A DNA stretch of 53,657 nt from Candidatus Gemmiger stercoravium. Lineage in GTDB: Bacteria; Bacillota; Clostridia; Oscillospirales; Ruminococcaceae. The position numbers and the translations under genes are program-made. How positions within the stretch are numbered: the stretch's first letter is position 1; each line of letters begins with the position of its first letter. The notes beneath the pieces are model-generated. The model had not been told where the DNA came from. It searched no databases and saw nothing but the letters and a program-made list of their open reading frames with translations. Below are positions 1,032 through 19,000 of this stretch, piece by piece. The DNA lies in NCBI GenBank assembly GCA_019119835.1, contig DWWE01000037.1:1-53657 (forward strand), in the 5' to 3' direction.

Positions 1032-2684
1032 ATGGGTAAGTCAAAAAATGATATCGGATATGGCGCGGGTAAGCTGCGCGTCCTCGTCGAGACGGCCCGC
1101 GGGACCAGGGCGACAGGCGGCAAAAAGCAGTATGACGGCAAGGTGTATGTCATAAATCCTATCACCAACCAGCCGTATACCAACCAAGAGATTCTGAATG
1201 CCCTGTGCCAGCGGCGGGAGGAACGCCCGGAACTTGCGGGGCTGATTGACCCGTGGATCGAAACGATCCAACCGCGGGCCCAGGTCCATCCGCAGGCAGC
1301 GTATCATCGGTCGGTACGCGCCGCAACCAGGGACGCAGCCCGGCAGCGCACTTGCCGCGAACTGCCGCCACAGATGCAAACGCTTTGTCGCCTGGTCTGG
1401 CTGCCCCAGGCCGAGAGCGCCGTCCGCGCTGGCAGCATGACGGTATGCGAGTATGTACAGTGCTGGGGCGTCAGCATTTTTGCCCGATACGGGGCGGACA
1501 AGGCCCAACGCCTGATGCGCGTCACGCGTACCGTCATTATCCCGGCCATTGGCGGCATGCCCATTGCGGATTTGGCGCCGGAACATCAGCCGCTGCGCAG
1601 CAATGCGGCTACCAAGATAATCAATCGGGTTCTCAACCGCAGCGCGTCCAAGGGCACCAAGCGAAGTGATGCCCGCACAGCGTTTGAGGCAATATTGACG
1701 AGCGCCCGGAGCATGGGCGCCACCCTCCATATGGCACCCAGTCACCTGGCGCGCTTGATCCAGCAACAGAAACGCCGCAACACGGCTATCCAGCCCGGGC
1801 TGCTGGCCGACCACTGCACCGACAGCCAGCGGTCGGGTTTTCTGGCTTGGCTGTATGATACCCGACGATACCAACTGCTGCTATGGGTGGCCTGCTTGTA
1901 CAGCGGGCTTACACCCGCAGAACTTTGTCCGCTGACGTTGAGCGACTTTGTGCGGATGGCCTGCGCCAATGGAACGGTCGTGTATACCGTACTGGTTACC
2001 CGCATCATCCATGCTGCGGGCAAGCGCAACACAGCCATTCAGGTGACGAACCCGGCCTTCCCGCGCGGGGTCTACCGTCGCGTTGTGATGGTGCCATGGT
2101 TCCGGGCGGCGCTGCAACTATATTTGACACAGTTGCAGTCGGATGACGTGCCGATTGGGACGCTAGGCCGCCGGAGCATCGCACAGCAAGGCAGCCGCCG
2201 CCTGACGCCAGACCAGGTACGGGCTGCGATTGAGGACAGCATGGCGGCCAGCAACTGCTACCCGACTCAACGTTTGGCGCGCACGCAGCCGGACGGTCGG
2301 ATCGTTGACGAGGCGCACGAAGCGGGCGTCCGGCTGCTGCGCAGTGATGCCCGGTACCTGTTCGCGCAGGTGGCTGGCCTGGCGCCGCAGCTGGTGGACG
2401 CCAGTTTTGGCGTGCGGCTCAGTGACGAGGACGAAGCCCATTACCTCGATGTGTTGGGTCAGGATGCGGCGCTGCGGCGGTATGTGGCGCTGCGGCGGCT
2501 GCCGATGCCAGCGTTTGCGGGGCAGGAACCCGACCCGCCGCAGGTTATGGTCGCTCGCGTTGAGAATCCCGGCGATGAGCCCGGCTGCGTCAAAATATGC
2601 GCGCCGTATGGCTATATAGCCAGGATTATCCAAGACCCTGCACAGAAACGTTCTGATTCATCTTATTTAGGAGGTCAACCATGA
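1032..2684 (+). CDS. Degenerate tyrosine recombinase-like protein, first of an overlapping pair
   Basis: A 550-residue protein starting at ATG 1032 behind AGGAGGCGGCTATC. The layout is that of a large phage-type integrase. Residues ~140-180 resemble the core-binding domain (VRAGSMTVCEYVQCWG), and residues ~290-475 the catalytic domain. The first catalytic motif, normally TGLRxSEL, reads SGLTPAEL (~residue 292), so the Arg is replaced by Thr. The beta-hairpin Lys is not evident (NPAFPRGVYRRVVMVP). The HxLRH box reads RSDARYLFA (~440), keeping only the second Arg. A possible nucleophile Tyr lies in EDEAHYLDV (~470). Its stop overlaps the next gene's start (ATGA), so the two proteins are probably made together. 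I infer a catalytically weak or inactive DNA-binding partner of the downstream recombinase. The family assignment rests on motif order only. Confidence 0.65.
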   Translation: MGKSKNDIGYGAGKLRVLVETARGTRATGGKKQYDGKVYVINPITNQPYTNQEILNALCQRREERPELAGLIDPWIETIQPRAQVHPQAAYHRSVRAATRDAARQRTCRELPPQMQTLCRLVWLPQAESAVRAGSMTVCEYVQCWGVSIFARYGADKAQRLMRVTRTVIIPAIGGMPIADLAPEHQPLRSNAATKIINRVLNRSASKGTKRSDARTAFEAILTSARSMGATLHMAPSHLARLIQQQKRRNTAIQPGLLADHCTDSQRSGFLAWLYDTRRYQLLLWVACLYSGLTPAELCPLTLSDFVRMACANGTVVYTVLVTRIIHAAGKRNTAIQVTNPAFPRGVYRRVVMVPWFRAALQLYLTQLQSDDVPIGTLGRRSIAQQGSRRLTPDQVRAAIEDSMAASNCYPTQRLARTQPDGRIVDEAHEAGVRLLRSDARYLFAQVAGLAPQLVDASFGVRLSDEDEAHYLDVLGQDAALRRYVALRRLPMPAFAGQEPDPPQVMVARVENPGDEPGCVKICAPYGYIARIIQDPAQKRSDSSYLGGQP

Positions 2685-4465
2685 AGAAGGAAAAGGATAC
2701 ATGCCAGGGACGCAACGCGGACCGGAACACGAAAAACGAAACATACACCAGTTACCGGCAGGATAAGATCACCTACCATCTGTCCTACGACCGGCCATCG
2801 TTCCGCAAGGGTACCGATGAGCCGGTTCGTGCGCGGGTCAACCTGCGGCTGCCGGGCGGGAAGCGATACCTGCGTAAATCGGACCTTGACCCCAATGCCA
2901 GCGATACGCCGTTGGACCGGGTACTCTACGGCCATAGTGAAAAGGATATCTATACACACAAATTGCCGTCCCTGGCCGCACAGATGCAGGCGGAATTACA
3001 AGCCAGCGGCCTGGTGGAAAAACAAGCCGAAGCATTGCAGGGCGAAGATCTTGGATGGCTGATTGCCACCCACGCCGAGGATATTCTGGCTGTTTCTTGC
3101 TCGTCGGTAACGGAAAATACCCGCGCCACCTACCGCGCCCGGATGCTGCAGCTGGCGAAGCTGTGCCGCGGCATCGACCCAACACGCCTGCATGGCGATG
3201 TCTTGGAAGGGCTGCGGTACAAGGTGCGCGAGGCAGCGGCACAAAACTCCCGGCATTATCAGGACTGGCAGCCGGGGGACGAGGACCCGTCCGCGGCGCG
3301 GCAGCAGTTCTATCTGTTGGGCCTGGCATTGGACTACCTGATTGGCCTGGGGTATGACATCCCGGCCGATGCATTGCAGCGCGATACAAGCCAGACAAGC
3401 CCGCAGGCTCTGGCCCTGCAGCGGACCGATTCCGCCCGCAGCTACCCGCCGCAGGCGTTCCACGCCATGCTGGCGGCGCTGGACCCGGATGAGCTTCATA
3501 CGCCGATATTGCTGACGCAGGCATTTACCGGTATGCGCATTGCGGAAGTCTGCGGACTGTTGTGGAGCGACTTTGCCGTGCTGCCCGGCTGGCAGGGGGT
3601 ACAGTACATGATTCGGGTGAGCGGTCAGCTCGGGGATGGCAGCCGAAGCGGCATGCGAATCGACACGCCCAAGACGGACAATGGGTACCGGTACATACCG
3701 TTGCCGGTCTGGCTTGGACAGCAGCTTGCGCAGCGGCGACAAAAGCTGGCGCTGACAGGGCGAAAGCTGAATCTGTTGCCCATCTGGCTGGATGACCCCA
3801 CCGCCAGCCGGGAGGAGATCGCGGAATTCAACCGCAAATTGATGGACAGCTACCGTCAGTCTGCAACCGATGCGCTGCGCACCACACTGTACGAACCGCT
3901 GCGCCGCGCACGGGCCTTTGTTTTTGATGCGGGCGCACAGGACCGGCAACTGCGGGAGATGCTGACGCCCCATTCACTGCGGCGGCGTTATCTGACTGAT
4001 TTGTACGGCCGGTCGATGGAGACGCCAGAGGAAATCCACCGCGCCACCGGCCACGCGGACCCGGAACGAAAGCCCCGCGCCCGGCGTTGCGCCCCCAACC
4101 GGGATGAGCAGTACCGAATGTGCCTGCGGTATGCGTTGGCCGGGATCGGTCTGGCGGAACCCGCCGTGCTGTGCTGCGAACTGGGCCGCGACGATGGCAT
4201 TGTGGACCCCTGCCTGCGGCTGGAACTGACCGTGCCACCGCACACCCGGGGCCAGGTGGTGATTTATGAGCAGGAACCAGGAACCACGCTGCAGGTCAGC
4301 GCCAGCGGTGTCGTCGTGACCGAAACGAATCGGCTGCCCCAAGCACCGTCCCTAACCAGGGAACGGCTGTTGGCCGACTGGCGGGCGTGGGAAGTCACCG
4401 ATACGAGTCACCCCCTGCACCACACAGAGGGCAGCAGTTGGAACGAGTTGCTGAGCCGACTATAA
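2681..4465 (+). CDS. Site-specific tyrosine recombinase with C-terminal extension
   Basis: A 594-residue protein whose ATG overlaps the preceding stop codon (ATGA). An AGGAGG lies inside the end of the upstream gene (about 2671-2676). Active-site motifs appear in the expected order: FTGMRIAEV (Arg ~286), TPKTDNGYRYIPLP (Lys in the beta-hairpin), TPHSLRRRY (His-x-x-Arg ~430), GHADPE (second His ~459), and a likely Tyr in DEQYRM (~476). The N-terminal half contains an ARM/core-binding-like segment (SVTENTRATYRARMLQLAKL, ~140-160). About 110 residues of beta-rich sequence follow the catalytic domain, which is unusual for XerD-like enzymes. The spacing of its motifs closely matches that of the degenerate upstream protein, suggesting an ancient duplication. 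It probably performs strand exchange for the element at the left end of the window. Confidence 0.8.
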   Translation: MKKEKDTCQGRNADRNTKNETYTSYRQDKITYHLSYDRPSFRKGTDEPVRARVNLRLPGGKRYLRKSDLDPNASDTPLDRVLYGHSEKDIYTHKLPSLAAQMQAELQASGLVEKQAEALQGEDLGWLIATHAEDILAVSCSSVTENTRATYRARMLQLAKLCRGIDPTRLHGDVLEGLRYKVREAAAQNSRHYQDWQPGDEDPSAARQQFYLLGLALDYLIGLGYDIPADALQRDTSQTSPQALALQRTDSARSYPPQAFHAMLAALDPDELHTPILLTQAFTGMRIAEVCGLLWSDFAVLPGWQGVQYMIRVSGQLGDGSRSGMRIDTPKTDNGYRYIPLPVWLGQQLAQRRQKLALTGRKLNLLPIWLDDPTASREEIAEFNRKLMDSYRQSATDALRTTLYEPLRRARAFVFDAGAQDRQLREMLTPHSLRRRYLTDLYGRSMETPEEIHRATGHADPERKPRARRCAPNRDEQYRMCLRYALAGIGLAEPAVLCCELGRDDGIVDPCLRLELTVPPHTRGQVVIYEQEPGTTLQVSASGVVVTETNRLPQAPSLTRERLLADWRAWEVTDTSHPLHHTEGSSWNELLSRL

Positions 4466-4489
4466 TTGGCCGCCCCCTGCTGGCGGCTG

Positions 4490-4518
4490 TTGACGGATTG
4501 GCTAATATACACTATAAT
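4490..4518 (+). promoter_or_regulatory. Promoter of the toxin-antitoxin operon
   Basis: TTGACG (4490-4495), a 17-base spacer and a perfect TATAAT (4513-4518) form a strong vegetative promoter 30 bases before the antitoxin start. It lies just after the recombinase stop codon, so the pair has independent expression. Confidence 0.85.
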
Positions 4519-4527
4519 AATATTAGC
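4501..4527. promoter_or_regulatory. Inverted repeat around the -10 box, likely autorepression operator
   Basis: GCTAATAT (4501-4508) and ATATTAGC (4520-4527) form a perfect 8-bp inverted repeat, extended by further partial symmetry, enclosing the TATAAT. Phd/YefM-type antitoxins repress their own operon by binding palindromes over the promoter. The site's position directly upstream of such an antitoxin fits that role. Confidence 0.7.
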
Positions 4528-4548
4528 TAAAGAAAGGGAGGGGTCCAT

Positions 4549-4791
4549 ATGAATATTGCGACTGCCACCGCCACCGAGATGCAAAACAATTTTGGACGGT
4601 ACCTGAATCTTGTCATGTCTGGCCAGGAGGTCATTGTGACCAAAAACGGCAAGGAAGTCGGCCGGTTTATTCCAAAAGACGCGGCGGTATCCTATTTGAC
4701 CGACTCGCTGACCGGGATTCTCCACCGGGACCTGGACCTCGAGGCGGCCAGAGACGAAGGGTTGAGGAAGAAGTATGCGAATCCTGATTGA
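4549..4791 (+). CDS. Phd/YefM-family antitoxin
   Basis: An 80-residue protein with ribosome site AAAGGGAGGGG. The N-terminal ~50 residues (ATEMQNNFGRYLNLVMSGQE, then VIVTKNGKEVGRFIP) match the Phd/YefM DNA-binding fold: an N-terminal helix, then a beta-hairpin carrying the KNGKEV turn. The acidic C-terminal tail (SLTGILHRDLDLEAARDE) would wrap the toxin. The gene overlaps the PIN toxin gene by 17 bases, the usual translationally coupled antitoxin-first order. It should neutralise the toxin and repress the operon through the inverted repeat upstream. Confidence 0.88.
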   Translation: MNIATATATEMQNNFGRYLNLVMSGQEVIVTKNGKEVGRFIPKDAAVSYLTDSLTGILHRDLDLEAARDEGLRKKYANPD

Positions 4792-5182
4792 TGCCAATAT
4801 CCTGTTGGATGTGCTGCAAAACCGGGCGCCGTTTGTAGAGGCGTCCTCAAAAATCTGGAAACTGTGCGAGACGGAGCAGGTCAAAGGGTATGTATCTGCG
4901 CTGACCTTTGCCAATCTCGTCTATGTGATGCGCAAAGAATTGGACCCGGCGCGCATCGAGGACGTGCTGAGCAAGCTGAATTTGATTTTCGAGTTTGCCG
5001 ACCTGACGGCCATGGATCTCGCCCGGGCCGCCGCGCTGGAGTGGGATGATTTCGAGGACGCCCTGCAAAGCGTGACGGCTGAGCGGATACACGCCGACTG
5101 TATCGTGACGCGGAATGTCCGTGACTTTGCCCAAAGCCGCGTATTGGCGTTTACCCCGGCAGAGCTGCTGGCAAGAATTTGA
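4775..5182 (+). CDS. PIN-domain toxin (VapC-like ribonuclease)
   Basis: A 135-residue protein that fills a single PIN domain. The opening MRILIDANILLDVL gives the first active-site Asp. Further acidic residues appear in the DDFEDALQ and TRNVRDF segments near the C-terminus, the normal PIN metal-binding set. VapC-type toxins are Mg-dependent ribonucleases that cleave tRNA or rRNA and arrest growth until bound by antitoxin. Pairing a Phd-type antitoxin with a PIN toxin is a common hybrid combination. Placed beside recombinase genes, the pair probably stabilises a mobile element. The RNA target cannot be read from the sequence. Confidence 0.88.
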   Translation: MRILIDANILLDVLQNRAPFVEASSKIWKLCETEQVKGYVSALTFANLVYVMRKELDPARIEDVLSKLNLIFEFADLTAMDLARAAALEWDDFEDALQSVTAERIHADCIVTRNVRDFAQSRVLAFTPAELLARI

Positions 5183-5685: not shown

Positions 5686-5761
<76 letters not shown>

Positions 5762-5821: not shown

Positions 5822-5910
5822 CCGCTTTTTTCGAAAAAAGTCGGTTTTTCCCCGGCGGCGGACGGCGGCGAGGGGCCGGACATAGAATACGTCGGGAAGG
5901 AGGTGGAGCC

Positions 5911-6546
5911 ATGCGGCGCAAAAACCCGAAGCCCGGGCCGCGGCGGTGGGTCCGGCGCGGGCTGGCCCTGCTGCTGGCGGCAGCCGGGCTGTATGTGTAT
6001 TTGGTGGAGACCGAGGTCAAACCCCGGGTGGAGGAACTGGCCGAGTACGAATGCCGCGCCATTGTGGTGCAGGCGATGAACGAGGCCGTAAGCGCCGAGA
6101 TGCAGCGCACCCCGGCGCTGTACCAGGACCTGTACACCCTGACCTATGCCCCGAGCGGTGCGCTGTGCGCGGTCCGGGCGGACACGGCCGCACTGAACCG
6201 GGCGCAGCTGGCATTGGTGGACGCCGTACAGCAGGCGCTGGCGGCGCTTCCGGCCCGGAGCTGGACCTTTCCGCTGGGCAGCCTGAGCGGCTGGAGCGTG
6301 CTGGGCGGGCTGGGCCCCGACTGGGAGATGCAGCTGCAGCCCCGCGGATATGTGGAGGGCCGGATGGAGGAAGAGGCCGAAAGCCTTTCCATCAACCGCA
6401 CCCGCTACACCGTATCGCTGGCCCTGCAGGTGACCATCAACATGGTGTTGGACGGCAAGCACAGCACCGCCGTGGTGGCCGAGCGCATTCCGGTGGCCAG
6501 CCTGCTGCTGGAGGGCGAAGTCCCCACCTATTACAGCGGCGGATGA
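5911..6546 (+). CDS. yunB: Sporulation protein YunB
   Basis: A 211-residue protein starting at ATG 5911 behind GGAAGGAGGTGGAGCC. An earlier in-frame start at 5809 lacks such a site. It has a short basic N-terminus, one membrane segment (GLALLLAAAGLYVYLVE, ~17-33), and an outer part. YunB-like features include the VKPRVEELAEYECRAI segment, PLGSLSGWSVLGGLGP, and SINRTRYTVSLALQVTINMV near the C-terminus. In Bacillus, yunB is expressed in the mother cell under sigma E and is needed for proper spores. Its exact activity is unknown. It is the only gene here tied to sporulation. Its 3' end overlaps the convergent CLC transporter gene by 16 bases. No clear promoter was identified. Confidence 0.85.
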   Translation: MRRKNPKPGPRRWVRRGLALLLAAAGLYVYLVETEVKPRVEELAEYECRAIVVQAMNEAVSAEMQRTPALYQDLYTLTYAPSGALCAVRADTAALNRAQLALVDAVQQALAALPARSWTFPLGSLSGWSVLGGLGPDWEMQLQPRGYVEGRMEEEAESLSINRTRYTVSLALQVTINMVLDGKHSTAVVAERIPVASLLLEGEVPTYYSGG

Positions 6547-7835
6547 TCCCCGAAGCCGGCCGGGTGGTGGGGGTGGATCTCGGAGCGGTATTCGGCGCCC
6601 AGCTTATCAGTGAGGAAATGCTGGTGGCTGTACAGCCCCGAATAGCCGGAGAGGGTGTAGCTGACGCCGCACACGATGGCATAATAGAGCAGCCCCGGCG
6701 CGCCGAACAGTTCGACGGCCAGCACGATGGAGGGCACCAGACAGTTGGTGGCGCCGCAGAAGACCGCCGCCAGCCCCAGCGCCGCGCCGAACCCGGCCGG
6801 CAGGCCCAGCAGCGGAGCCGCCACGCAGCCGAAGGTGGCCCCCACAAAAAAGCTGGGGACCACTTCGCCCCCCTTATACCCCGCCCCCAGCGTGAGGGCG
6901 GTGAAAAGGATCTTCCACAAAAAGTCCAGGGGCAGGGCCTGGCCCTGCTCCACCGCCAGGGTGATGACATCGGTGCCGGCGCCGTTGTAGCGGGTGGAGC
7001 CGCACAGCCAGGTAAGGGCCACCACCGCCGCGCCGCCCGCCAGCACCCGCAGCCAGGGGTTGGGCAGGGCCCGTTCCAGCCAGCTGTGGGCCAGGCGCAG
7101 CACCCGGCAGAACAGCTGGGTGACCAGCGCACAGGCCAGCCCCAGGGCCAGCGTGCGCAAAGCCAGCCCCGGCGCCCAGCCCGGCATGGTCACTGCGTAG
7201 CGGGTGGGCGCGACCCCCAGCAGCTGGGTGATGCTGTAGGCCACCAGCGAAGCCCCCAGCGCCGGCAGGAAGGCCGCGTAGAACACCAGCCCCACGTTGA
7301 CCACCATCATGGCGAACAGGGTGGCCGCCAGCGGGGTGCCGAACAGGGCGGTGAAAAAGGCCGCCATGCCGCAGAGAGTGGCGGTGCGGCAGCCGTGGTC
7401 GGACAGGTGCAGCAGCCGGCCGGTCTGCCAGCCGATGTCCCCGCCCATCTGCAGCGCCGCGCCCTCCCGTCCGGCGCTGCCGCCGGTCAGGTGGGTGAGC
7501 ACGGTGGACAGGAAGATCGCCGGCAGAAGCAGCAGCGCCACCGGCTTGCCGTCCTGCACCGCGTCGATCACATCGTTGGTGCCAAGGCCCTCGGTGCCGG
7601 TGGCCTTGTAGATCTGCACAATGGCCAGGCCGGCCAGGGGCAGCAGATACAGCAGCCAGGGGGTCTGGCCACGCAGGCGGGTGGCCTCGTCCACCGCCAG
7701 GTGGAACGCCGTGCCGATCCCCCCGCACAGCCCGCCGATGACCACCGCCGCCACCAGCCAGCGCCCCAGCGTGACCGCTGCCGGCCGGCCCCGGCGCCAC
7801 AGGCCGCGGGCCGCGTTTTTCCATCCTTGGGACAT
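6531..7835 (-). CDS. CLC-type anion channel/antiporter, possibly fluoride-exporting branch
   Basis: A 434-residue protein with about ten hydrophobic segments and CLC motifs in order: a first-loop variant EGLGTNDVID (~83-92) in place of GSGIP, GGSAGREGAALQMGG (~117-131) with the gating Glu in GREG, and YKGGEVVPSFFVGATFG (~314-330) in place of GxFxP. Canonical chloride CLCs carry GSGIP and GREGP. The altered first motif, GREGA followed by QM, and the GGEVxP glutamate resemble the CLC-F group, which exports fluoride by proton exchange. I recall that pattern rather than having aligned it. It is the last gene of the pilus-like operon, 24 bases after pilT, with ribosome site GAAAGGAAGAGGAT. No fluoride riboswitch is visible. 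The alternative is a chloride CLC with drifted motifs. Confidence 0.8.
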   Translation of the reverse strand: MSQGWKNAARGLWRRGRPAAVTLGRWLVAAVVIGGLCGGIGTAFHLAVDEATRLRGQTPWLLYLLPLAGLAIVQIYKATGTEGLGTNDVIDAVQDGKPVALLLLPAIFLSTVLTHLTGGSAGREGAALQMGGDIGWQTGRLLHLSDHGCRTATLCGMAAFFTALFGTPLAATLFAMMVVNVGLVFYAAFLPALGASLVAYSITQLLGVAPTRYAVTMPGWAPGLALRTLALGLACALVTQLFCRVLRLAHSWLERALPNPWLRVLAGGAAVVALTWLCGSTRYNGAGTDVITLAVEQGQALPLDFLWKILFTALTLGAGYKGGEVVPSFFVGATFGCVAAPLLGLPAGFGAALGLAAVFCGATNCLVPSIVLAVELFGAPGLLYYAIVCGVSYTLSGYSGLYSHQHFLTDKLGAEYRSEIHPHHPAGFGDHPPL

Positions 7836-7859
7836 ATCCTCTTCCTTTCTGTTGGTGGG

Positions 7860-8930
7860 TCACAGGCGGGACAGGGCGTCCAGCTTGCGCTGGGTCGTCT
7901 CGTACCGCAGGCAGTAGGTGAGCACCGTGTCCCGGGTGATGCGCCCGGCCGCGTACAGGCGGCAGAGGCTGTCGTCCATCGTACACATGCCCTCGGCGGC
8001 GCCGGCCTGGATGGCGGCGTCCAGCTGGAAGGTCTTGGCTTCCCGGATCATGTTCTTGATGGCCGGGGTGGAGCGCATCACCTCGAACACCGCCGCCTGC
8101 CCCCCGTCGGTGGTGGGGACCAGCTGCTGGCTGATGACCGCCTGCAGCACCATGGACAGCTGGATGCGCACCTGCCCCTGCTGGCTGGCGGGGAACACAT
8201 CCACGATCCGGTCGATGGTGTTGGCCGCCCCGGTGGTGTGCAGGGTGGAAAAAAGCAGCTGGCCGGTCTCGGCGGCGGTCATGGCCACCTCGGTGGTCTC
8301 CAGGTCCCGCATCTCCCCCAGCAGGATCACGTCGGGGCTTTCCCGCAAGGCGCTGCGCAGGGCGCTCACATAGCTGGGGGCGTCGCTGCCGATCTCCCGC
8401 TGGGTGACGATGCTGCGGTTGTGGCGGTGGATGTACTCGATGGGGTCCTCCATCGTGATGATGTGGGCTTCCCGCTCGTGGTTGATGGCGTCGATCAGGC
8501 AGGCCAGGGTGGTGGACTTGCCGTTGCCGGCCGGGCCGGTGACCAGCACCAGCCCCTTGCGCTGGCGGGCCACATCCATCACCTGGGCCGGGATGCCCAG
8601 CGCCGCCGGGTCGGGCAGACCGAAGCGGATGACCCGCAGCACCGCCGCCAGGGTGCCGCGCTGATGCAGCACGTTGGCCCGGAAACGGCCCATCTGCGGG
8701 ATGGCAAAGGAAAAATCGTCGTCCGCGTCGGCCTGCTGCAGCGCCCGGGGGCTGCGCTCCGACAGGGTGTAGATGGCCCGGATGGCCGCCTCGGTCTGGG
8801 CCGGGGTCAACCGTTCGCCCATCCGCTGCTGGCGGCCGTTGACCTTGTAAGTCAGCGGAAGGCCGGCAATGATGAACATGTCGGAGGCGCCGCAGTCCAG
8901 CGCCTGCTGCAGCAGTTCACGGATCTCCAT
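7860..8930 (-). CDS. pilT: PilT-family pilus retraction ATPase
   Basis: A 356-residue protein starting at ATG 8930 behind AGAGAGG. The N-terminal PAS-like domain (LDCGASDMFIIAGLPLTYKV) is that of PilT/PilB ATPases. Walker A is GPAGNGKS (132-139), the His box is LFSTLHTT (~227-233), and Walker B is VILLGEMRD (201-209). The AIKNMIRE motif (~290-297) is the C-terminal helix signature of retraction ATPases (AIRNLIRE). The length is normal for PilT, which drives pilus depolymerisation at the inner membrane platform. The gene follows a PilC-like gene and four pilin-like genes in one operon, yet no extension ATPase (PilB) is present. Either PilB is encoded elsewhere or this ATPase drives a simplified pilus or competence-like pseudopilus alone. 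Confidence 0.92.
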   Translation of the reverse strand: MEIRELLQQALDCGASDMFIIAGLPLTYKVNGRQQRMGERLTPAQTEAAIRAIYTLSERSPRALQQADADDDFSFAIPQMGRFRANVLHQRGTLAAVLRVIRFGLPDPAALGIPAQVMDVARQRKGLVLVTGPAGNGKSTTLACLIDAINHEREAHIITMEDPIEYIHRHNRSIVTQREIGSDAPSYVSALRSALRESPDVILLGEMRDLETTEVAMTAAETGQLLFSTLHTTGAANTIDRIVDVFPASQQGQVRIQLSMVLQAVISQQLVPTTDGGQAAVFEVMRSTPAIKNMIREAKTFQLDAAIQAGAAEGMCTMDDSLCRLYAAGRITRDTVLTYCLRYETTQRKLDALSRL

Positions 8931-8967
8931 ACAAGCATTCCTCTCTTTCTGCCGCGGGGCGGCGGGG

Positions 8968-9366
8968 TCACTGTCCGGTCCACACATCCAGCGAGGTGTC
9001 CGGTTCCCAGGGGGCGGTCAGCTGCCAGCGGGTGATCCGCCAGCCCTCCCCCGCCGGCTCGGCGGCCAGGCGCAGGGTGTCGCCGCTTTCCAGCGTCAGC
9101 TCGGCCTGCACCCCGCCGTCCCCGGTGGAGACGGTGTCGGCCGGCAGCGTGCCGGGGTCGGCGGCGTCCAGGGCAGCCAGCCACTCCTGGCCGGCCTGCT
9201 CGGCGGCGGCCTCCTGGGCCAGCCGGTCCAGGCTTTTTTGGGCCAGGGCCTCGTCGGCCCGGGCGGTGGCCAGCGAGAGCACCGCCAGCACGGCCAGGCA
9301 GAGCAGCACCACCGTGAACAGCAGGGTCAGCGCCCCGCTGCGCACCGGGCGATGGGATGTTTCCAT
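8968..9366 (-). CDS. Small single-pass pilin-like membrane protein
   Basis: A 132-residue protein from ATG 9366 behind AAGGGAGGTGTACCC. A short basic head (METSHRPVRSG) precedes one long hydrophobic helix (ALTLLFTVVLLCLAVLAVLS), then a charged helix (ARADEALAQKSLDRLAQEAA) and a small beta-rich outer domain. This is the type IV pilin or pseudopilin outline, with G/A as a possible prepilin peptidase site, but the Glu at +5 is missing, as in tip-type minor pseudopilins. It is the fourth pilin-like gene after pilC and is followed by pilT. No specific family is recognised. Confidence 0.65.
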   Translation of the reverse strand: METSHRPVRSGALTLLFTVVLLCLAVLAVLSLATARADEALAQKSLDRLAQEAAAEQAGQEWLAALDAADPGTLPADTVSTGDGGVQAELTLESGDTLRLAAEPAGEGWRITRWQLTAPWEPDTSLDVWTGQ

Positions 9367-9424
9367 GGGTACACCTCCCTTGCGGGCCCCGGCGGCCGGG
9401 GCGTGGGGATCGGTCGGGCCCGGC

Positions 9425-9859
9425 TCAGCCGCCGGGCAGATAGTGCGCGGTGTCCAGCGCAGCCAGTTCGTCCCCGCCGGGGGCCGACACCGCCACATGA
9501 GCCTGGATCATCCACCCCGCCGGGCGTGGGTCCGGTTCCAGCGCCACCGTGACGGTGTAGGCGGCGGGGTCGGTCTCGCCGTCGGCCAGGCGGGTGCCGT
9601 CGGCCGCGTACAGGCAGGTGACGGTCTGCCCCTGTCCGTCGGCCGCCGCAGCCAGGGCCTCGGCCCAGCCGCCGGCGCCGGCGTGGAGTTCCGCCGTGAC
9701 GTTCTGCAAGATCAGCGCCGCGTCGGTTTCGCGGCGGGCCTGCAGGCCCAGGCGCTGGGCCGCGCCGAACAGCTGCACCAGCAGCGCCAGCACCACCAGC
9801 AGGAACAGCGTCAGGGCCAGAGTCTCGATGGTAAAGGCCAGGTTTCTGCGCTTGTTCAT
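9425..9859 (-). CDS. Type IV pilin-like protein
   Basis: A 144-residue protein. The opening MNKRRNLAFTIETLALTLFL resembles a prepilin leader, with a cleavage-like A/FTIE junction. The acidic residue is at +4, not the usual +5. One membrane helix (to ~residue 32) continues into a helix (AAQRLGLQARRETDAALIL) and a C-terminal domain of mixed strands (VTVALEPDPRPAGWMIQAHV). Its start overlaps the previous gene's stop (ATGA), so it is translationally coupled to the DUF4860-like gene. It probably forms part of the pilus-like filament. Substrate and role cannot be assigned. Confidence 0.65.
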   Translation of the reverse strand: MNKRRNLAFTIETLALTLFLLVVLALLVQLFGAAQRLGLQARRETDAALILQNVTAELHAGAGGWAEALAAAADGQGQTVTCLYAADGTRLADGETDPAAYTVTVALEPDPRPAGWMIQAHVAVSAPGGDELAALDTAHYLPGG

Positions 9860-10320
9860 GGCAGTTCCTCCCCGCTGTGCAGCCAGACCCGGACCGTGCC
9901 CTCGCCGGTGGTGATGGTGTAGAGCCGGCCTTCCGCCGTGACCTCAAAGGTGTCGGTGCGGGCCACCACCTGGGCGGCGGCCGGGTCCAGCGGGGTGTCG
10001 GCGGCGGCGTATTCCTCCATGAGCGCCCCCTGGTACAGGTAGATGCGGGTCTCGTAGCCGGGTTCCGCCAGGATCAGCGCCGGACCTTCCGGCCCCTGCT
10101 CCACCGTGACGGCGCCGGCGGCGTCGCCGGCCCGCAGCCGGGCGCTGACATATCGCAGCGCCGCCCGGGCCGCGTTGTTGCGCCCCTGGCTTTCGGTGAG
10201 GGCGCGGTATACCTCGCCCCCGAAGCCGACCACCGCCAGCACAACCCCCAGCATCAGCACGAACAGCGCCAGTGCGCTGACGCCCGCCGTATTTGAATGT
10301 CTTTTGGTGCGGGTGAACAT
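9856..10320 (-). CDS. Pilin-like membrane protein, DUF4860-like
   Basis: A 154-residue protein with start ATG 10320 and ribosome site AAAGGAGCCGGGT. After a basic head (MFTRTKRHSNTAG) comes one hydrophobic helix (VSALALFVLMLGVVLAVVGF) and a domain whose layout (ALRYVSARLRAGDA, then YETRIYLYQGALMEEYA) resembles Firmicute proteins classed as DUF4860. That assignment is from memory of the pattern. Such proteins often sit in pilus or secretion operons, as this one does. A role as a minor pilin or assembly factor is inferred from context. Confidence 0.6.
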   Translation of the reverse strand: MFTRTKRHSNTAGVSALALFVLMLGVVLAVVGFGGEVYRALTESQGRNNAARAALRYVSARLRAGDAAGAVTVEQGPEGPALILAEPGYETRIYLYQGALMEEYAAADTPLDPAAAQVVARTDTFEVTAEGRLYTITTGEGTVRVWLHSGEELP

Positions 10321-10356
10321 ACCCGGCTCCTTTCTGGGAAAACGGACCGCCCAGCG

Positions 10357-10683
10357 CTATTTTTGCAGCACCTGCACGTCGGGCAGCTGGTTGGAGGCAT
10401 AGACCTCATAGGTGACGATGTAGCGGGCGTGGTTGATCTGCACGCCGTATTCCCGCTCCAGCCGGTCCAGGCTTTCGGGGTATTTGCCCTCCACGGCGTA
10501 GCACTGCACGGCGGCTTCCAGCACGGCCTGGCGCAGCGCCGCCGCGCCCTGGCGGTCCAGGTCCCGCTCCACCCGCTGCAGAACAGCCCGGCCGCCCCAG
10601 CCCAGCAAAGCCAGGGCCAGCAGGACGCCCAGGACCCGCAGCAGACGGGTGCGCAGCGGGGTGCGGGGTCGATCATGATACAT
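10357..10683 (-). CDS. Small pseudopilin-like membrane protein
   Basis: A 108-residue protein starting at ATG 10683 behind GGGAAGGAGGGCT. One membrane helix (LLRVLGVLLALALLGWGG, ~12-29) is followed by a helix with QGAAALRQAVLEAAVQCYAV and then EGKYPESLDRLEREYGVQIN. The YxxEGKYPxSLxxL pattern is a hallmark of the helix-turn in GspG/PilA-like pseudopilins, where short peptides with YP follow the long helix. A canonical GFTLIE leader is lacking. It lies directly after pilC in the operon, where major pseudopilin genes often lie. Confidence 0.65.
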   Translation of the reverse strand: MYHDRPRTPLRTRLLRVLGVLLALALLGWGGRAVLQRVERDLDRQGAAALRQAVLEAAVQCYAVEGKYPESLDRLEREYGVQINHARYIVTYEVYASNQLPDVQVLQK

Positions 10684-10714
10684 GGCGCAGCCCTCCTTCC
10701 CGGTTTGCGGCCGC

Positions 10715-11764
10715 TCAGCCGATGGCCCCAAGGATGCCCACCAGCGGCAGCATGGCCGACACCAGCGTGATGCCCACCGCCACGGTCAGGAAGGCCGAGA
10801 GCGCCGGCTCGATGCTGTCCACCGCCTGGTCCATCCGGGCCTGGGCGTCGGTCCAAAGCAGGTTGCTGAGCCGGGCCAGCACCAGTTCCAGGTTGCCGCT
10901 GCGGGCCCCCGCCACCAGCAAACGGGCATAGAGGGGTTCCAGCAGCTTTTGGGTGTAGAGGGCCGTGGCCAGGCCGGCGCCCTCCTGCTGCATCTGGCGG
11001 CGGCAGGCTTCCGCCTTGGCGCGCAGCCCCGGGTGGGTGACCAGCGCGCAGGCGTCCTCGATGGCCGCGTCCTCGTCCAGGCCGCTGGCCACGTCGATCT
11101 GCAGCACCTGCAGGAAGCGGCAGAGGGCGTTTTCCTCCACCAGCTGCGCTGTGAAGGGCAGCCGCCCCAGCAGCCGGACCAGACGGTCCCGGCCGGCGGG
11201 GCTGCGGAAGGCAAGGCAGGCCCCGAGCAGCGCCAGCGCCAGCAGCACCGTGACGGCCAGCGCCGCGCCGCCCACCACATACCCCACCGCAATATACCGG
11301 TAGGAGGAGGCGGTCAGATCGCCGGACAGGCTGGCATAGACCCCGGTGAACACCGGCATGACCCGGGCCAGCAGCACCGTGAGGATGACCGCCATCAACA
11401 GCAGCAGCACCAGCGGGTAGAACACCGCGCTTTTCAGCCGGGATTGCAGCCGGTCCTGGGCGGTATAGTACCCGGCCAGGCTGTTCAGGGCCTGGGTGCT
11501 GCGGCCGGCGCGCTCCCCGGCTGCCAGCATCCGGCTGGCATAGGCGGGGAAATAGCCGCTCTGGGCCATGGCGTCGGACAAAGTGCCCCCCTGCACCAGC
11601 AGGTGTTTCTGCACCGCCTGGGCGGCGTCGTGGAAAAGGCTGTCGGCGCTGTCCTCACACAGCAGGCCGGCGGCTTCCTCGGGCCCGATGCCGGCGCCCA
11701 GCAGCATGGCCATATTTTCGCAAAACAGGCTCAGCGCCCGGTTGTCCAGTTCCTTGCTTGCCAT
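10715..11764 (-). CDS. pilC: Type II secretion F/PilC-type inner membrane platform protein
   Basis: A 349-residue protein with the two repeated T2SSF domains. The first (LDNRALSLFCENMAMLLGAG to SGYFPAYASRMLAAGERAGR) is followed by a membrane hairpin (SAVFYPLVLLLLMAVILTVL). The second (CRFLQVLQIDVASGLDEDAA to LLVAGARSGNLELVLARL) is followed by the final helix SAFLTVAVGITLVSAMLPLV. The G-E-x-x-G (AGERAG) and ARSGNLE motifs are typical. PilC/GspF forms the platform that links the ATPase to the growing pilus. It sits between the transglutaminase gene and the pilin-like genes, with gaps of 12 and 31 bases. Length is near the low end for PilC (~400). Confidence 0.88.
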   Translation of the reverse strand: MASKELDNRALSLFCENMAMLLGAGIGPEEAAGLLCEDSADSLFHDAAQAVQKHLLVQGGTLSDAMAQSGYFPAYASRMLAAGERAGRSTQALNSLAGYYTAQDRLQSRLKSAVFYPLVLLLLMAVILTVLLARVMPVFTGVYASLSGDLTASSYRYIAVGYVVGGAALAVTVLLALALLGACLAFRSPAGRDRLVRLLGRLPFTAQLVEENALCRFLQVLQIDVASGLDEDAAIEDACALVTHPGLRAKAEACRRQMQQEGAGLATALYTQKLLEPLYARLLVAGARSGNLELVLARLSNLLWTDAQARMDQAVDSIEPALSAFLTVAVGITLVSAMLPLVGILGAIG

Positions 11765-11776
11765 CTGGGGTCCTCC

Positions 11777-12733
11777 TTAGTAGGTCAGGCGGTCGGTGTA
11801 GCCGGTGCCGTCCCCGGTGAATTCCCCGGGGGCGCCGGCGGCGAAGGTCAGGTCGATGCGCTCCCAGCTGTGGGCCGGGGCCTCGATCTCCACGGTGATC
11901 CAGCCGCTTTCCTCCAGCCAGATCATGTTCCAGGCATGGTAGAGATCCCCGGGCGAGACATAGCCGGTGATGAGCTTGGTGGGGATGCCCTGGCTGCGCA
12001 GCATGGCCGCCGCCAGCGCCGCATAGTCAAAGCAGATGCCCTGGCCGGTGGCCAGCGTCTCGTCCGGGTCGGGGAGGTAGCCGCTCTGCACCGTGGCGGC
12101 CTTGGCGGTGTCATAGGTGATGGTATCCCGGATATAGGCGTAGATGTTGGCCACGGCGCCGGCCTCGTCGGCCGCCCGGGCGGCCAGGTCGGCGGCCAGG
12201 GCCACGCAGTCGGAGTCCGGGCCGTAGTTCACATACTGGCTGGGCCGCAGGAAGGGGGCGAATTCGCTTTCCAGCGTGACTTCGGCCTGCACGGCGCAGA
12301 TCTCGACGTATTTGTCCTCGGTGGTGTTCTGCATCACCCGGAAGGTGTAACTGCCGTCGCCGCTCTGCAGTGGAAAGACCTGGGGGGTGCCGTCCCCGGG
12401 CAGGTCGTAGTTGTAGCGGGTCTCGCCGTAAACCACCTGGAATTTCAGCCGGTGGTCGTTTTCAGCGCTGGCCGCCACCACCCCCTGCGCCACGCAGGAC
12501 AGGTCGATCAGCGCGCCGTTTTCGCCGGCGGCGGCCTCGGGGTGGAACCCGCTTTCGGCCATGGGCGGGGCGGTATACCCGCCGCCGGTGGTGCCGGGCA
12601 GGGCGGCGGAGGCCGTCGGCTCGGCCGCGGGGGCGCTGCCGGCCTGGGCGGTGGCCGCCGGGGCCCCACAGGCCCCCAGCAGCAGGGCCAGCCCCAGGCA
12701 TACCAGCCGGGCGGCCGGCGGAATATGCGGCAC
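11777..12733 (-). CDS. Transglutaminase-like lipoprotein heading the pilus-like operon
   Basis: The chosen start is GTG 12733, behind GGAGGGGAGGGG, giving 318 residues that open directly with a lipoprotein signal (LVCLGLALLLGAC, lipobox Cys ~19). The longer frame upstream would bury the signal. After an Ala/Pro-rich linker and a beta domain comes a transglutaminase core: GQGICFDYAALAAAMLRSQG (nucleophile Cys), DLYHAWNMIWLE (His), and WITVEIEAP, where the usual Asp seems to be Glu. Members crosslink, deamidate or hydrolyse amide bonds. The protein should be anchored outside the cell membrane. As first gene of an operon with pilC, pilin-like proteins and pilT, it may process or crosslink the filament or attached wall proteins, but this is inference. 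Confidence 0.82.
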   Translation of the reverse strand: MPHIPPAARLVCLGLALLLGACGAPAATAQAGSAPAAEPTASAALPGTTGGGYTAPPMAESGFHPEAAAGENGALIDLSCVAQGVVAASAENDHRLKFQVVYGETRYNYDLPGDGTPQVFPLQSGDGSYTFRVMQNTTEDKYVEICAVQAEVTLESEFAPFLRPSQYVNYGPDSDCVALAADLAARAADEAGAVANIYAYIRDTITYDTAKAATVQSGYLPDPDETLATGQGICFDYAALAAAMLRSQGIPTKLITGYVSPGDLYHAWNMIWLEESGWITVEIEAPAHSWERIDLTFAAGAPGEFTGDGTGYTDRLTY

Positions 12734-13035: not shown

Positions 13036-16000
13036 TCAGCGATCCTTGCGGTTGGCGCGCTTGCGCTCCTGCAGGTAGACGATCAGCAGCACACCGCACA
13101 GGCTCAGCGAAGCCACCAGCACGATGGGGGCGCCGTCTCCGGTCTGGGGGATGGTGCGCACCACATGGGCGACCTGGCGAACCTGGCGGACCACCTCGTC
13201 GGTGACCTGCCGGGTGATGGTGACATCCCGCTTGGTGTTGTACAGGTTGATGGTGGTATCGCCCACCCACTCGGCGTCCGCGCCGCTGAGCACCGTAAGG
13301 TTGCCGTAGGCGTCGAAGATGAACTCGGTGTCCTCAGCCTTGTCGTACCCGTCGGGGGCGGTGACTTCGCGCAGGATGTAGGTGGTATCCACATTCAGCA
13401 CGCGCTCCATGCCCTGGGTCGTTTCGCCGCTGGTCCACTGGTACACCACGGTGCCGGTGTCCTTTTCGATGATCTGCAGCACCGCGCCGGTGACCGGCTC
13501 ACGGGTGTTGGTGTCCAGCTTGTTCACATACAGCTTGGTCACCTCGTCCTGCACGCCGACAGCGCCGTCCTTGTACTCGAGCACGATGCCCTGTGCGGTT
13601 TCGTCCACCGTTGCAACCTCGCTCTGTTCCGGCGCCGGGGCGTTTTTGGCCAGACGGTTGCTGTCCTGGTATTCCAGGTAGTAACCGCTGCCGTCCTCAG
13701 CTTCCCGGATGGTGAAGGTCTTGCTCGGATATTCGTCTACGGTATGGCCGTCGGGGGCGAACTCTTCCTTGAAGTAGTAGGTTCCTCCGACTTCCACCCC
13801 TTCATAGAAGGTCATGTAACCGTTTTCGTCGGCCACACAGTTGCCCAGGTACAGGTCCTCGCCATTGGCTGCACCGCTGACGCGCCACAGGCCGTAAATG
13901 GCACCCACCAGCGGGTCGTTGGAGCCGTCCTTACTGGTCTTCTGCACGCGCAGAATGATGGGGTACCAGGTGTTGACCAGTTCGGGCGTCTCCGTCTGCT
14001 GGCCGTCCTCGTAGTAGGTCAGGTTTGCCTCCAGGTGAGAGGGATCCTCCGCATTGCGGCTGATTGTGATTTCCACCGTGACCACAGTCTCATCATAGAC
14101 ATAGTTGGGGTCGTGGTTGTAGGTCGGGTCTTCCTCAATGGTGTATCGGAATGTCTTGCCAACATCCTCCTCATCAAAGCGGAGTTCTTCCGTATCAGCG
14201 CTGTCAAAGCGGACATTGCCATCAGCATCGTTGTAAGCGGAAGCAATGACCCTGCCGTTTTCATCCTTCAGATCGAACTTGAACGCGTTGGGGGTGATGG
14301 CAATGCCGACCTGTTCGTCGGTACCGTCAGCGGTTACCACCCGCTTGGTGATCTGCGGGTCGATAAAGACCACGCCGGCCCCATTGAAGGTGTTGGTGAC
14401 AGTGAACCGGTAGACATAGCTTGCATCACTTGCATCGCCCGACTGCGGCTCACCGGTGGAGAGAGCAACGCTGGCCGTATAACCCGGGAGCGGGTTTTCA
14501 GGCGTCAGGCCCTCGGCCGGCACCTCTTCAACCGTGTAGATATACTTGTTGCCTTCGCTGTCAAAGTACGGCTGTTTACCGAAAGACGCTTCCCAGTCGT
14601 TCTCCCCATTGAGGGTCACGGTGGCCACCGCCTGCGGTTCCTTGCCCTCCGTGCTCCGCATCAGACGGACCCGAACCTCCGGGTGGGTATCGGTAATTTC
14701 TTCGTCACCGACCCATTTTTTGGTGACCTCGATTTCCAGAACTGCCGTATTGACAAAATCCTCCACCAAAACAGGCGTTTCATTGTCGGCAAAGTCTTCC
14801 GCACTCAAAGTCACCTTTGCCACCTGATCGGTGTACGAGATCCCGTCGATCGTCTTGCCTGCATTCTGCTCCACGACGGCCAGCTCGATCGTTTTGGAGG
14901 TATCGCGCACGCTGTAGTAGAAGACGAAGTTCCCGTTCTCATCGGTGGTCGCCGTTGCAAGCGGCTTCGCGTTCGCATAACTTGCCAGGTTATCATCGAT
15001 ATACTTGTACAGGTTAAAGCGGAACTCACCCTCCTCCGCGTTGCGCTGAGTCGTGTCGCTCTTCACATACTTGTGGCCCTGGATTTCGACAAAGTTGCCA
15101 TCCAGGCTATAAAGCTGCAATTCGTTGTTGTAGAAGGCTGCAACAGGCTGTTTCCCTGCTTCCGGCGTGATGGTCTGCTTTTCGTCGTCCGTATAGCTGC
15201 CATTTCCATCGCCATCATACATCCAGGTCATGGTGACGGTTTCTTTGACGCCGCCAGGCTCTGCTGCCTCATCATATTCGAGTTTGACCTCGACCAGATA
15301 GACGCTGGCATCGTTGACAGTGATCAGCTCGCCATTCTCGGCCTCCCCGGCATCCCCCGTATTGCCATCCTTCTCACGGATCAGATAGTAATAGGTAATG
15401 GGGTCGTACCCTCCGTCTTTGCTTTCGGTAAAGACAGGCTCGTACTCAATGCTCGGGAAGGAATCGGTACCGGCGCCCTGTTCATTCAGCGGAATCGAAA
15501 TTTTCGTACCCGAAGGGATCAGGCCATTCTCGTCCGCCCGGATGATGGTCTCGTCGGAAACTTTTTCCGTCGTTCCTCCGGAGGCATTGTTGACGCTGCC
15601 GTCCGCGTTGGCGTTCAACAGCTCAAATGTAAACCATTTTTCGGAAGCATTGGTTCCGTAGAACTGCTTGCTGACCGAAAATTGTACATCCGACTCCAGC
15701 TTGTTGTCAAAAACATCGTAGGAGGGGTAGGTCACGGCCGGGTAGTTTACATCCTCCGCACTGGCCGGCAGTTCGTCCGCAAATTCGCCATCGCTATTGT
15801 TTGCAAGGATGTAGCCCACATAGGTCTTCAGCTGGTCCGGCGTATACTGGCTGGGCAGGATGAAGTACGTTCTCTGCGTGTTGCGCTGGTACCCTGCCGG
15901 GGCTTTGGTCTCCTCGTAATAATACAGGGTATCAAAATCCAGCGTTCCGCCGGCCCCTTCGCCAAAGACGGCAACGCCGTTATCGTTGGATTCGACGGTC

Positions 16001-19000
16001 TCGACCTTGGTAACCTCTTTGACAATCGGATTTGTGGGGATCCTGTCCGCATTCACCGGACCGGACGAATTATCGACCTCAACCTTGTAGAGGGTGAACT
16101 CTGCATCCGGCAGCCTGGTATTGACATTTGTGGAATCCTTCTTGGTGAGGGATACCGTGCCGGCTGTGCCGGTGGCCGTGGCAGCCCCCTCGGCATAATA
16201 GAATGTATAATCGTTCCCAGCGGTGATTGTGTAGCTGCCGGTGAGGGTGGCCGTATTCTTCAGTGTGACAGGTTTGTTCGGCTGCTCGTTGTTCACCACC
16301 TGGGTATACACGATCCGAACATAGGTTTCGTCCGGAAGGGTACAAACCAGCACATTATGCCCGTTCTCGGTTTCGATGCGCCAGCTGGCGTCACTGACCA
16401 GGGTGTTTGTATTGCCGCGGTAGAAGGTGACGCTGGTGGGCACCGTTGCATTGTCCGGCAGCTGGTCCCGCAGGGTCAGGATGTCGTCCGAGCCCGGCAG
16501 CAGGTCCAGCCCATCCTGGTTGACCTTGATGGTGTATGTAAGGCCGATTTTTGCTCCGCTGCTCGTCTTATACTCTTCGCTCGTCTTATCGAGGAGGTTG
16601 TTTTCCACTCTGACCGTGTCCGTCGCGTCGCCAAGCTGGGTGCCCCCCTGGTTGAGGATCGCGTTGTTGGTCAGATAGACGGGATCGGACGGGGCCTCTT
16701 CATCATACACATCACCGGTGACTTCGGTATAATAGACCAGTTGATACTTGGCGCTGGTCAGACCGGTCAGGTCCCAGACCAGGGTGGAACTGTCCGGATC
16801 AGTCGGCTCCACCTCCCTGGGTTCGCCGGCGGGGTCCACCTGTTCCAGGGTGGTCTTCCCTTCCATATAGCGCAGCCCTTCCGGCAGGGTATCGGTGATT
16901 GTGAAGACCGTTTCCCCGGTGACATTTGTCAGGACGCTCAGATCCAGGTCGATGGTCCACTTGATCGCCGTCTTGGCCGAATCGCCGGCCACGACAGCAA
17001 TATCCAGTTTGCCCTTTTTCGTGAAAATATCCTTGAAGGTGGCCTCCACTGTGTCTTCCACAGTCTCTGTCTCTTTGTCAAAGATATAGGACACGCTAGA
17101 GGTATTGGTAACGGTGATGTCCGTGCCATTGGTGGCCTGACCCAGGTTGTCCCCTTCCGTCGTGGGCTGGGTTTGGGTTGTGTAAGTCACGATGAAGATA
17201 TGCGGGCCGGTCACATTGCCGAACGCAATGGTGAAAGTTTTGCCATCCGTGTCATACGAGATCGTTGCATTCTTGAGCGCCGGGCAGTCAGCCCCGTGCG
17301 TCTCGCACGTCTCGCACGTCACCGCCACATCCTCTACCAGTGTCGTATCAGCCGGGTGGCTGGCGTTGCCGCCCGTATGGCCGACTGTATCGGTAAAGGT
17401 AAAGTTTTGCAGCGTCTGGCCGGGCTGCTGGGTTCCTTCTGCCGCATTGACATCCGACAGATCCACCTCAACCGACCATTTGATGGTCCCATCCAGGTAG
17501 GACTGGGCCTCCTTCGTCTTCTCCAGGTTCACCTCCGGCGGAATGTCGTTGTCGTCGAAGGTGTTGGTGAAGTTGGCATTCGTGGCGGTTGTATCGTCCG
17601 TAAACGTAACATTTGCGGCGTTATCGTCCGGTACGAAGGTGCCATTCGCATCATAGGTGCCTTTTTGAATGGTTTTCGACGTTGTGAGGGTGTAGCCGTC
17701 CCCCCCTCTCGTGACTGTCACCGCGATCTGGTAACAGGTCGTATCGTCGGTGATGCCGGAGATATTGGAAGCCACCTCACGAACACGGAAGAGGTGCGGG
17801 CTGTTGGGCTCAGTCTTGGTATAATACGTCAAATTGCCCGAAGAGAGTGTGTAAGTCTCACCTGGTTTTGCGTCTGCAGAGCTTACTGCGTTTGTATAGT
17901 TTACTTGAGTCCATTTGCCATTTTCGAGCTCTTCCAACACAAACGTGAACTTTGTTTCGTCAAAGGTTACCTTGTGCGGATTGTAGATGTCCTCTACCGT
18001 CTTGGTGCCGGAAACAGTAAAGCTGGTCGTTACTTCGGAGTACTTGTTTTCGAATGCCAATGGCTCCTGTTGATTGGTAGCGACTTTGACAAGGGTCTCG
18101 TCGTTCTGCAATTCAGCGCGGCTCCAGGTAACGTCCAGACGATTATCTGCTGTGTTGGAGTTATTTTCTACTTCGACAATGATGTAGTAGCATGTATCGT
18201 CATCATACGTCACGCCCTGCGCATTGCCGGAGTCTTCCGTCACCTTATAGTAGTAGGTAGCTTTTTCTGTGTGCGGGCCATAGTAGGTCAGGGTAAATGT
18301 AAAATCGCCGCTGTCATTCGGTTGCGTCGTAACGCCGTTGTCTAACACATTACCTTGCGCGTCTACCTCTTGCAGCCGCATGGTAAATGCGCGGGGGCTG
18401 GGCTTGTTCGTACCGTCCACCGCTGTGACCGTCTTCGTGCCCGGTATGGTCGTGCTGCCTTTGTAGTATTGGTTTTCGAAGTTCAGGCCAGTAAAGGAAA
18501 TTGGGGTTCCTTCCTTGATTTCTTTCCACTCGCTATCAGGCACAGAATCGCCTTTGTCGTCCACTTGCGCAATCTCAAGTTTCAGCGTTCCATTATCATA
18601 GGTGGTCACGCGCACGGCAAACCAATACTCCCGCGTATCGTACACAACACCAGGCGTACCGGCGCTGCTGTCTTCATACAGGCGATAATAGTAAGTGTTT
18701 CCGACATCATTCTTGTTGAAGCTGCCGAACTTACTGCCATTAAAGCTGATGTCTCCTTTGTTTGCGGTGATGGGCTTCACGGCAAAGGAGGTATCACGTT
18801 CGCCGTTCAGATAGCGCTCCAGTTTGAATGTATAGTCGCGTTCGGGGGTTCCGCCGTTCTCTTTTTTTGTGCCGTTGAAGGTCACGCCTGTGCCAATGTC
18901 TTTCCCCCGGTAGATGTTGACAAAGTCGGCGTCGGCGTCGCCGGACACGGGTGTCCACGTTCCGCTCGCACCCTCCCGCTTGGAATAGGAGACCGTGGCC

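Follow-up and report, generated by a model that had tools for sequence, protein, structure and literature searches.

The type IVa pilus of Clostridia is represented here by the operon of genome G423, with the gene order PilB-PilT-PilC-pilin-p1-p2-PilM-PilN-(PilO)-p3-p4-PilD, where p1 to p4 denote the relatives of the four small proteins described below. According to the accessible part of PMC6916266, PilT is the retraction motor of such pili and is dispensable for piliation. In Myxococcus, a type IVa priming complex of four minor pilins with PilY1 enters the type IV pilus (T4P) machine independently of PilB; the pilus that it primes there has a major pilin and is built by PilB (PMC7541494, available text). 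Clostridia also carry Tad-like loci with TadA, TadC and TadV, in which type IV filament genes lack the prepilin motif (PMC3244431, in the portion available). A two-cluster T4P is described in the accessible part of PMC8726730.

The window, that is, the whole stretch of 53,657 nucleotides analysed here (contig DWWE01000037.1 of Candidatus Gemmiger stercoravium), contained a closely packed set of seven genes on the minus strand (12733-7860), with intergene gaps of -4 to 58 bases. The set and its surroundings comprised the following features:

Terminator-like stem upstream of the operon, 12927-12887, minus strand: stem of 19 pairs with a T run behind it, by consensus match
Promoter-like site of the operon, 12853-12824, minus strand: TTGAAC-18-TATAAT; consensus match only
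TG, 12733-11777, minus strand: 318 aa, GTG start; secreted transglutaminase-like protein, probable lipoprotein (PF01841, E 6e-24)
PilC2, 11764-10715, minus strand: 349 aa; PilC/GspF platform protein (PF00482 twice, E 1.5e-32)
p1, 10683-10357, minus strand: 108 aa; pilin-like membrane protein
p2, 10320-9856, minus strand: 154 aa; DUF4860 (E 7e-17), GspJ-like minor pilin fold
p3, 9859-9425, minus strand: 144 aa; GspI-like minor pilin fold, E5-like Glu12
p4, 9366-8968, minus strand: 132 aa; small membrane protein, probably GspK/PilX-like by its place
PilT2, 8930-7860, minus strand: 356 aa; PilT-type ATPase (TIGR01420)
ClC chloride-channel gene, 7835-6531, minus strand: 24 bases after PilT2 (PF00654, E 6e-53)

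All the parts that an earlier reading of the letters alone (the sequence-only reading) had described were present on the minus strand, including TG at the operon head with its lipobox-like LLGAC stretch. A single promoter-like site was found in the region, with 0.3 expected; together with the terminator-like stem it may set the operon apart from the upstream gene, both elements being consensus matches.

Compared with the G423 pilus, the set shared PilT, PilC and relatives of the four small proteins in the order PilC-p1-p2-p3-p4, whereas PilB, the major pilin, PilM-O and PilD were missing, p1 and p2 had no cleavage motif, PilC2 was shorter and TG was added. Similarly, neither PilB nor a major pilin of the kind that the Myxococcus complex primes was found in the set, and PilT, PilC and minor pilin relatives took the place of the Tad proteins of the Clostridia loci. 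The sole ATPase of the set was PilT-type, as had been claimed: PilT2 contained the proposed AIKNMIRE stretch, scored 408.5 bits against TIGR01420 (cut-off 319.1) and had PilTs as its best solved relatives. Both a ComGA-type ATPase of a com operon (NF041000, 127 bits; cut-off 300) and the GspE ATPase of type II secretion (TIGR02533, 124 bits; cut-off 630) were rejected as identities of PilT2. A PADLOC search gave one weak match, for PilT2. PilC2 belonged to the inner-membrane platform proteins (PilC/GspF) by its PF00482 match, but it had no counterpart to positions 1 to 56 of the GspF model, the TIGR02120 match beginning at model position 57, and its median length was 347 over 101 members.

We then examined the four small proteins. 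The C-terminal model of p1 matched the N_methyl prepilins of two T4P operons (1.6e-10 and 5.5e-9), and those of p1 and p2 together gave matches from 1.6e-10 to 2.1e-6; these GFTLIE prepilins come from ordinary T4P operons and, in G423, stand in the same gene order, while p1 and p2 have lost their own cleavage motif. The full-length model of p4 matched the minor pilin-like protein that comes last in the G423 T4P operon (3e-6), mainly in the N-terminal region. Predicted folds were GspJ-like for p2 and GspI-like for p3 (minor pseudopilins), so that the pilin fold was recognised by predicted structure for these two only and by sequence for p1. Foldseek gave no significant E-value for p2 and p3; their pilin fold is proposed from the VIA-align Z together with a long first helix and the link to prepilins by sequence. 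Pfam scans found no pilin family in p1 (15 members), p3 (92 members) or p4 (92 members, with a single weak Tad match, E 0.0033), and the p1 and p4 profiles found no credible relative among solved structures. In the domain and family scans, the ends used for TG, p1 and p4 differed by 5 residues or fewer from those given above. The invariance of p1 Cys61 was selected by the scan pattern CY[AT]xEGxYP[EPD] and hence is no evidence. Altogether, p1 to p3 were shown to be relatives of T4P minor pilins, and the claim that the small genes are pilin-like is less sure for p4.

None of the genes of the set was recognisable as a major pilin. By the strict pattern test, the pilins of the set did not qualify as carrying a class III (cleavable) leader (0/101 p1, 0/100 p2, 18/95 p3 and 0/96 p4). 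Some processing of p3 and p4 is possible, given the 18 p3 sequences with the strict pattern and the p4 Gly11, kept in 94/96. Although the set works with parts of a pilus, the type IVa pilus class does not apply to it because it was found wanting in the ATPase, the peptidase and the leader. These results bear on the reading that the set builds a true thin filament, in which a bidirectional PilT2 would assemble p1 as the repeating subunit with no leader cleavage. Its attraction lies in the relationship of p1 to prepilins and in the single ATPases that may both extend and retract, discussed in the available text of PMC6668835. However, p1 showed neither the cleavage motif nor an E5-like residue in the pattern tests, has a length of just 108 aa and is matched one-to-one by three tip-type pilins, and the dispensability of PilT for piliation (PMC6916266, accessible part) also speaks against a thin filament, which we consider unlikely.

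TG had the Cys-His-Asp core domain of the transglutaminase-like superfamily, with Cys234, His266 and Asp294 invariant in 89/89 aligned members; its best solved relatives were transglutaminase-like proteins, at a weak E-value (3e-5). A simple lipobox pattern, which misses some plausible cases, was found in 54/89 TG sequences, and in several loci TG looks secreted, without a lipid anchor. Crosslinking of a filament by this putative transglutaminase is possible. The set could also act as a secretion piston, in which the tip complex, working as a short type II pseudopilus does, would drive TG or another secreted protein across the thick wall. The predicted folds of p2 and p3 recall the GspJ and GspI of the type II secretion tip, and TG is a constant neighbour that in several loci seems to be released rather than lipid-anchored. 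Minor pseudopilin folds alone, however, are shared with type II secretion, whose GspE the set does not have; GspG, GspO and a secretin are likewise lacking, and p2 has no processing motif. An extension ATPase is missing, monoderm cells lack an outer membrane that would have to be crossed, and there was no conserved cargo gene next to TG (the commonest flanking cluster occurred in 19 of the best 80 loci described below), which makes a piston improbable.

The sequence-only reading had stated that no PilB or PilD was present. This held within the set and on its contig, where a profile search found neither an A24 peptidase nor any further match to T2SSE or T2SSF, but not for the genome. In the window's own genome (G000; 2.36 Mb, 120 contigs, 93% complete), one further strong T2SSE match lay on contig C105 and was a PilB that has an MshEN domain; nearby were a PilC of full length, a two-domain A24 peptidase (PilD) and two N_methyl prepilins. 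Contig C105 also gave a weak PilN match and a weak T2SSM match, both under the cut-off, and no PilT was found beside this T4P operon. The third T2SSE match of the genome was weak (contig C7, E 4.5e-7) and surrounded by genes that we take to resemble sporulation stage III A. The idea that the genome has no PilB was thus ruled out, and PilT2 could additionally act for the pilus of C105, whose operon is without a PilT. Since a T4P operon is present in the window's own genome, only a comparison across genomes can settle the question.

To this end, DUF4860 (p2) was located in 15 of 61 genomes, the window's own counted, and the remaining 14 loci were fetched (L026-L039). In 13 of the 14, PilC2, p1, p2, p3, p4 and PilT2 followed one order, with p3 in five loci and p4 in one assigned by place, there being no BLAST match. 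TG stood in front in 12 of these 13; L028 ends there. The exception, L039, had PilC2 and p1-p4 without PilT2 or TG. A p1 pattern scan of the genome collection gave at least 597 stretches, among them at least 589 relatives, and loci were made from the best 80 of these relatives, a sample that leans towards window-like sequences and in which at least three loci repeat genomes seen already (L040, L041 and L042; identical ATPases). Where a group is named, the best 80 loci are from Bacillota, mostly Clostridia, and include Holdemania, Solobacterium and two Sedimentibacter; two (L049 and L113) have no group name. The seven genes occurred in one order and on one strand in 62 of the best 80. The other 18 included 10 loci cut by a contig end, three with TG on the opposite strand, four without TG despite sequence being there, and one without a detected p3. 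In Acetoanaerobium noterae the six core genes were present and TG stood at the 3′ end; a plasmid search returned one record, a 2.6 Mb replicon of this species that has no annotated genes in the stretch. The flanks of the best 80 loci had no constant neighbour.

In a class-wide draw of 392 genomes, p1 was matched at E <= 1e-5 in 49. Two of these, G423 and G397, were discarded as carriers of the set, their weak p1 matches turning out to be ordinary T4P operons. The set itself was observed in the window, in the 14 relatives, one of which has it incomplete, and in six of the drawn genomes (L120-L125), among them G318, where no TG was detected; elsewhere in the draw the p1 match is a proxy for the set. 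In addition, dN/dS lay between 0.04 and 0.51 in 42/42 gene-by-pair comparisons (seven genes, six locus pairs), with 0.04-0.31 for PilT2. Because the gene order is conserved and dN/dS is low, the set is more than a chance arrangement; conservation as a unit, which the sequence-only reading suggested checking across Oscillospiraceae, extends well beyond that family. These data also weigh on the view that the set is the decaying remnant of a T4P operon. Such a view would account for the absence of PilB, PilD and PilM-O from the set and for genome G048, which retains PilC2 and p1-p4 and has lost PilT2 and TG too. However, it is contradicted by the selection on all seven genes and by the recurrence of the same seven genes in distant Bacillota groups; it was rejected as highly improbable.

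The INDEPENDENCE from the pilus was addressed by a search of 61 genomes, 12 of them relatives and 49 from the class draw. At E <= 1e-90, a T2SSE match of the PilB/GspE type was present in 32/61 and not found in 29/61; excluding G423 and G397, such an ATPase was present in 30/59. An A24 peptidase (PF01478, E <= 0.001) was not found in 14/61, and in 13/61 neither the ATPase nor the peptidase was found. In nine of these 13 (G440, G176, G323, G246, G014, G008, G009, G033 and G047), a single T2SSE match (E <= 1e-20) was present together with one two-domain T2SSF protein, the latter in the set; T2SSE matches of E 4e-8 or worse, which some of these genomes have, were left uncounted, and in G440 and G176 the match was assigned to PilT2 from its being single and from PilT2 in the set (L120 and L121). 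Among the remaining four, G318 had a second, weak T2SSF pair, G048 had no ATPase, and G119 and G225 had additional T2SSE matches. When the A24 search was repeated in 11 genomes with the limit relaxed to E <= 10, three matches appeared (E 0.02 to 0.63), all of them short of the cut-off. Each of G440 and G176 is a single contig, 99 and 100% complete, and for these two the absence of PilB and peptidase is well supported; for the drafts it is less so. A PilM search gave no match in G000 and G006, although both have a T4P operon, so that a missing PilM match carries no weight.

These genomes decide how much weight to give to an accessory retraction module, by which PilT2 and its partners would serve an ordinary pilus encoded elsewhere. 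The window's own genome fits it, since the T4P operon there has no PilT and PilB and PilT2 are the only strong T2SSE matches; G003 and G017 fit too, since the strong matches of each are a PilB-type ATPase and a second one that lies in the set. In contrast, the nine genomes carry the set without a detected PilB or peptidase, other genomes (e.g., G006 and G036) have the set plus a PilT beside PilB, and the set has its own platform and pilins, so that an accessory module appears quite unlikely. The sequence-only reading had held that a complete operon with PilB elsewhere, using these genes as accessories, or a lack of conservation would tell against it; a T4P operon with PilB does exist elsewhere, but the set is conserved and no mere accessory, and it is also carried by genomes, including the single-contig G440 and G176, where neither PilB nor PilD was found.

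A quick maximum-likelihood tree of 117 ATPases placed the 94 PilTs of the set on one side of a branch and the 23 others on the opposite side (SH-aLRT 99), the latter including PilTs that adjoin PilB in genomes carrying the set. In G437, G230, G199 and G081, the nearest PilT lay about 40 kb from p1, and the distant PilTs of G437, G230 and G368 were placed just outside the branch of the set. Some outside rows are long-branched, L146 is probably no PilT, and the deeper order of this tree is not readable.

Altogether, the set is probably a separate kind of surface machine, and several genomes yielded no pilus machinery besides it. Our leading explanation, to which we give an even chance, is that the seven genes form a self-contained, reduced T4P machine made up of a platform, a tip complex and a PilT motor, with no extension ATPase or leader peptidase. 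Against it stand the PilB/GspE-type ATPase in 30/59 genomes, the cleavage pattern kept by some p3, the distant PilTs, the four loci without TG, and G048. Slightly less probable is the fuller proposal of a new Bacillota family of type IV filament machines, with a PilT-type motor alone, unprocessed anchored tip pilins and force coupled to an extracellular TG, and with no pilus; our confidence in this family was lowered because of the distant PilTs and the p3 motifs that are retained. The minimal or new T4P-like machine proposed from the letters is partly supported, and the pilus as such is doubtful because no major pilin is recognisable and p1 and p2 have no cleavage site. In the reduced machine, p1-p4 would remain unprocessed in the membrane and assemble on PilC2 into a short complex of the tip type; as a major pilin is missing, no long filament would be formed. 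PilT2 would turn or pull PilC2 with ATP, and the tip complex would move in short strokes on the membrane's outer side. TG would be the conserved outside partner, probably carrying out transamidation or cleavage of whatever the complex holds, and its target might be a secreted substrate, a protein bound to the wall or the complex itself. That a tip complex could do without extension is plausible because the Myxococcus complex enters its machine independently of PilB (PMC7541494, available text).

If this is true, pilus parts can work without a pilus, with PilT as the sole motor. It also becomes testable whether PilT is of use in the absence of PilB and whether uncleaved pilins are functional. 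No mention of DUF4860 (PF16152) was found in the open-access papers searched, nor any report of such a PilT-TG-pilin set in the titles and abstract openings among the matches listed; surveys that use PilB as the ATPase marker, to judge from the accessible part of PMC6668835, would likely overlook the set. DUF4860 gains a meaning as the domain of a GspJ-like minor pilin, and attention is drawn to three families of proteins in common gut bacteria for which Pfam has no name. Finally, the ClC gene (6531-7835), absent from the account of the sequence-only reading, was present at 5 of the 14 relative loci, all in the window's genus, and is probably a neighbour and no part of the set.

DUF4860, the domain of the pilin-like protein p2, matched just under its cut-off on two genuine N_methyl prepilins (L127 8921-9415 and L128 1157-1618). 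Because it is found on genuine prepilins, we conclude that DUF4860 is a domain of minor pilins.

The ATPase PilT2 was missing from the set in G048 and G437. In G048, the relative locus L039 (7504-10266) carried PilC2 and p1-p4 but neither PilT2 nor the transglutaminase-like protein TG, and the T2SSE profile, which covers the ATPase family including PilT and PilB, had no match in this genome at E <= 0.001. This locus is either a remnant or a motor-less version of the set. Genome G437 (L125, L126) carried the set lacking PilT2 and had a PilT approximately 40 kb off; comparable PilT distances (approximately 40 kb) were found in G230, G199 and G081. The set was also present in Acetoanaerobium noterae (L149, NZ_CP154629.1), with TG located at the 3′ end. 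This 2.6 Mb replicon is recorded as a plasmid and has four annotated features.

In the window, the set was flanked by the following features:

13036-22011 (-), surface protein of 2991 aa, immediately upstream of the set
6531-7835 (-), ClC channel gene, 24 bases past PilT2
5878-6546 (+), YunB-type sporulation gene (PF09560, E 9e-18), its end abutting the ClC gene
5686-5761 (-), tRNA-Ala
2681-5182 (+), recombinase-like gene (PF00589, weak) and Phd/YefM-PIN toxin-antitoxin-like pair

The ClC gene adjoined the set in 5 of the 14 relative loci, all five from the genus of the window. The recombinase-like gene, the Phd/YefM-PIN-like pair and the tRNA-Ala possibly represent an old integration. The surface protein contained seven FctA stretches, three SpaA and one Cna_B, domains of a kind that form isopeptide bonds, and its C-terminus was of the IPQTGD type, as read by eye.
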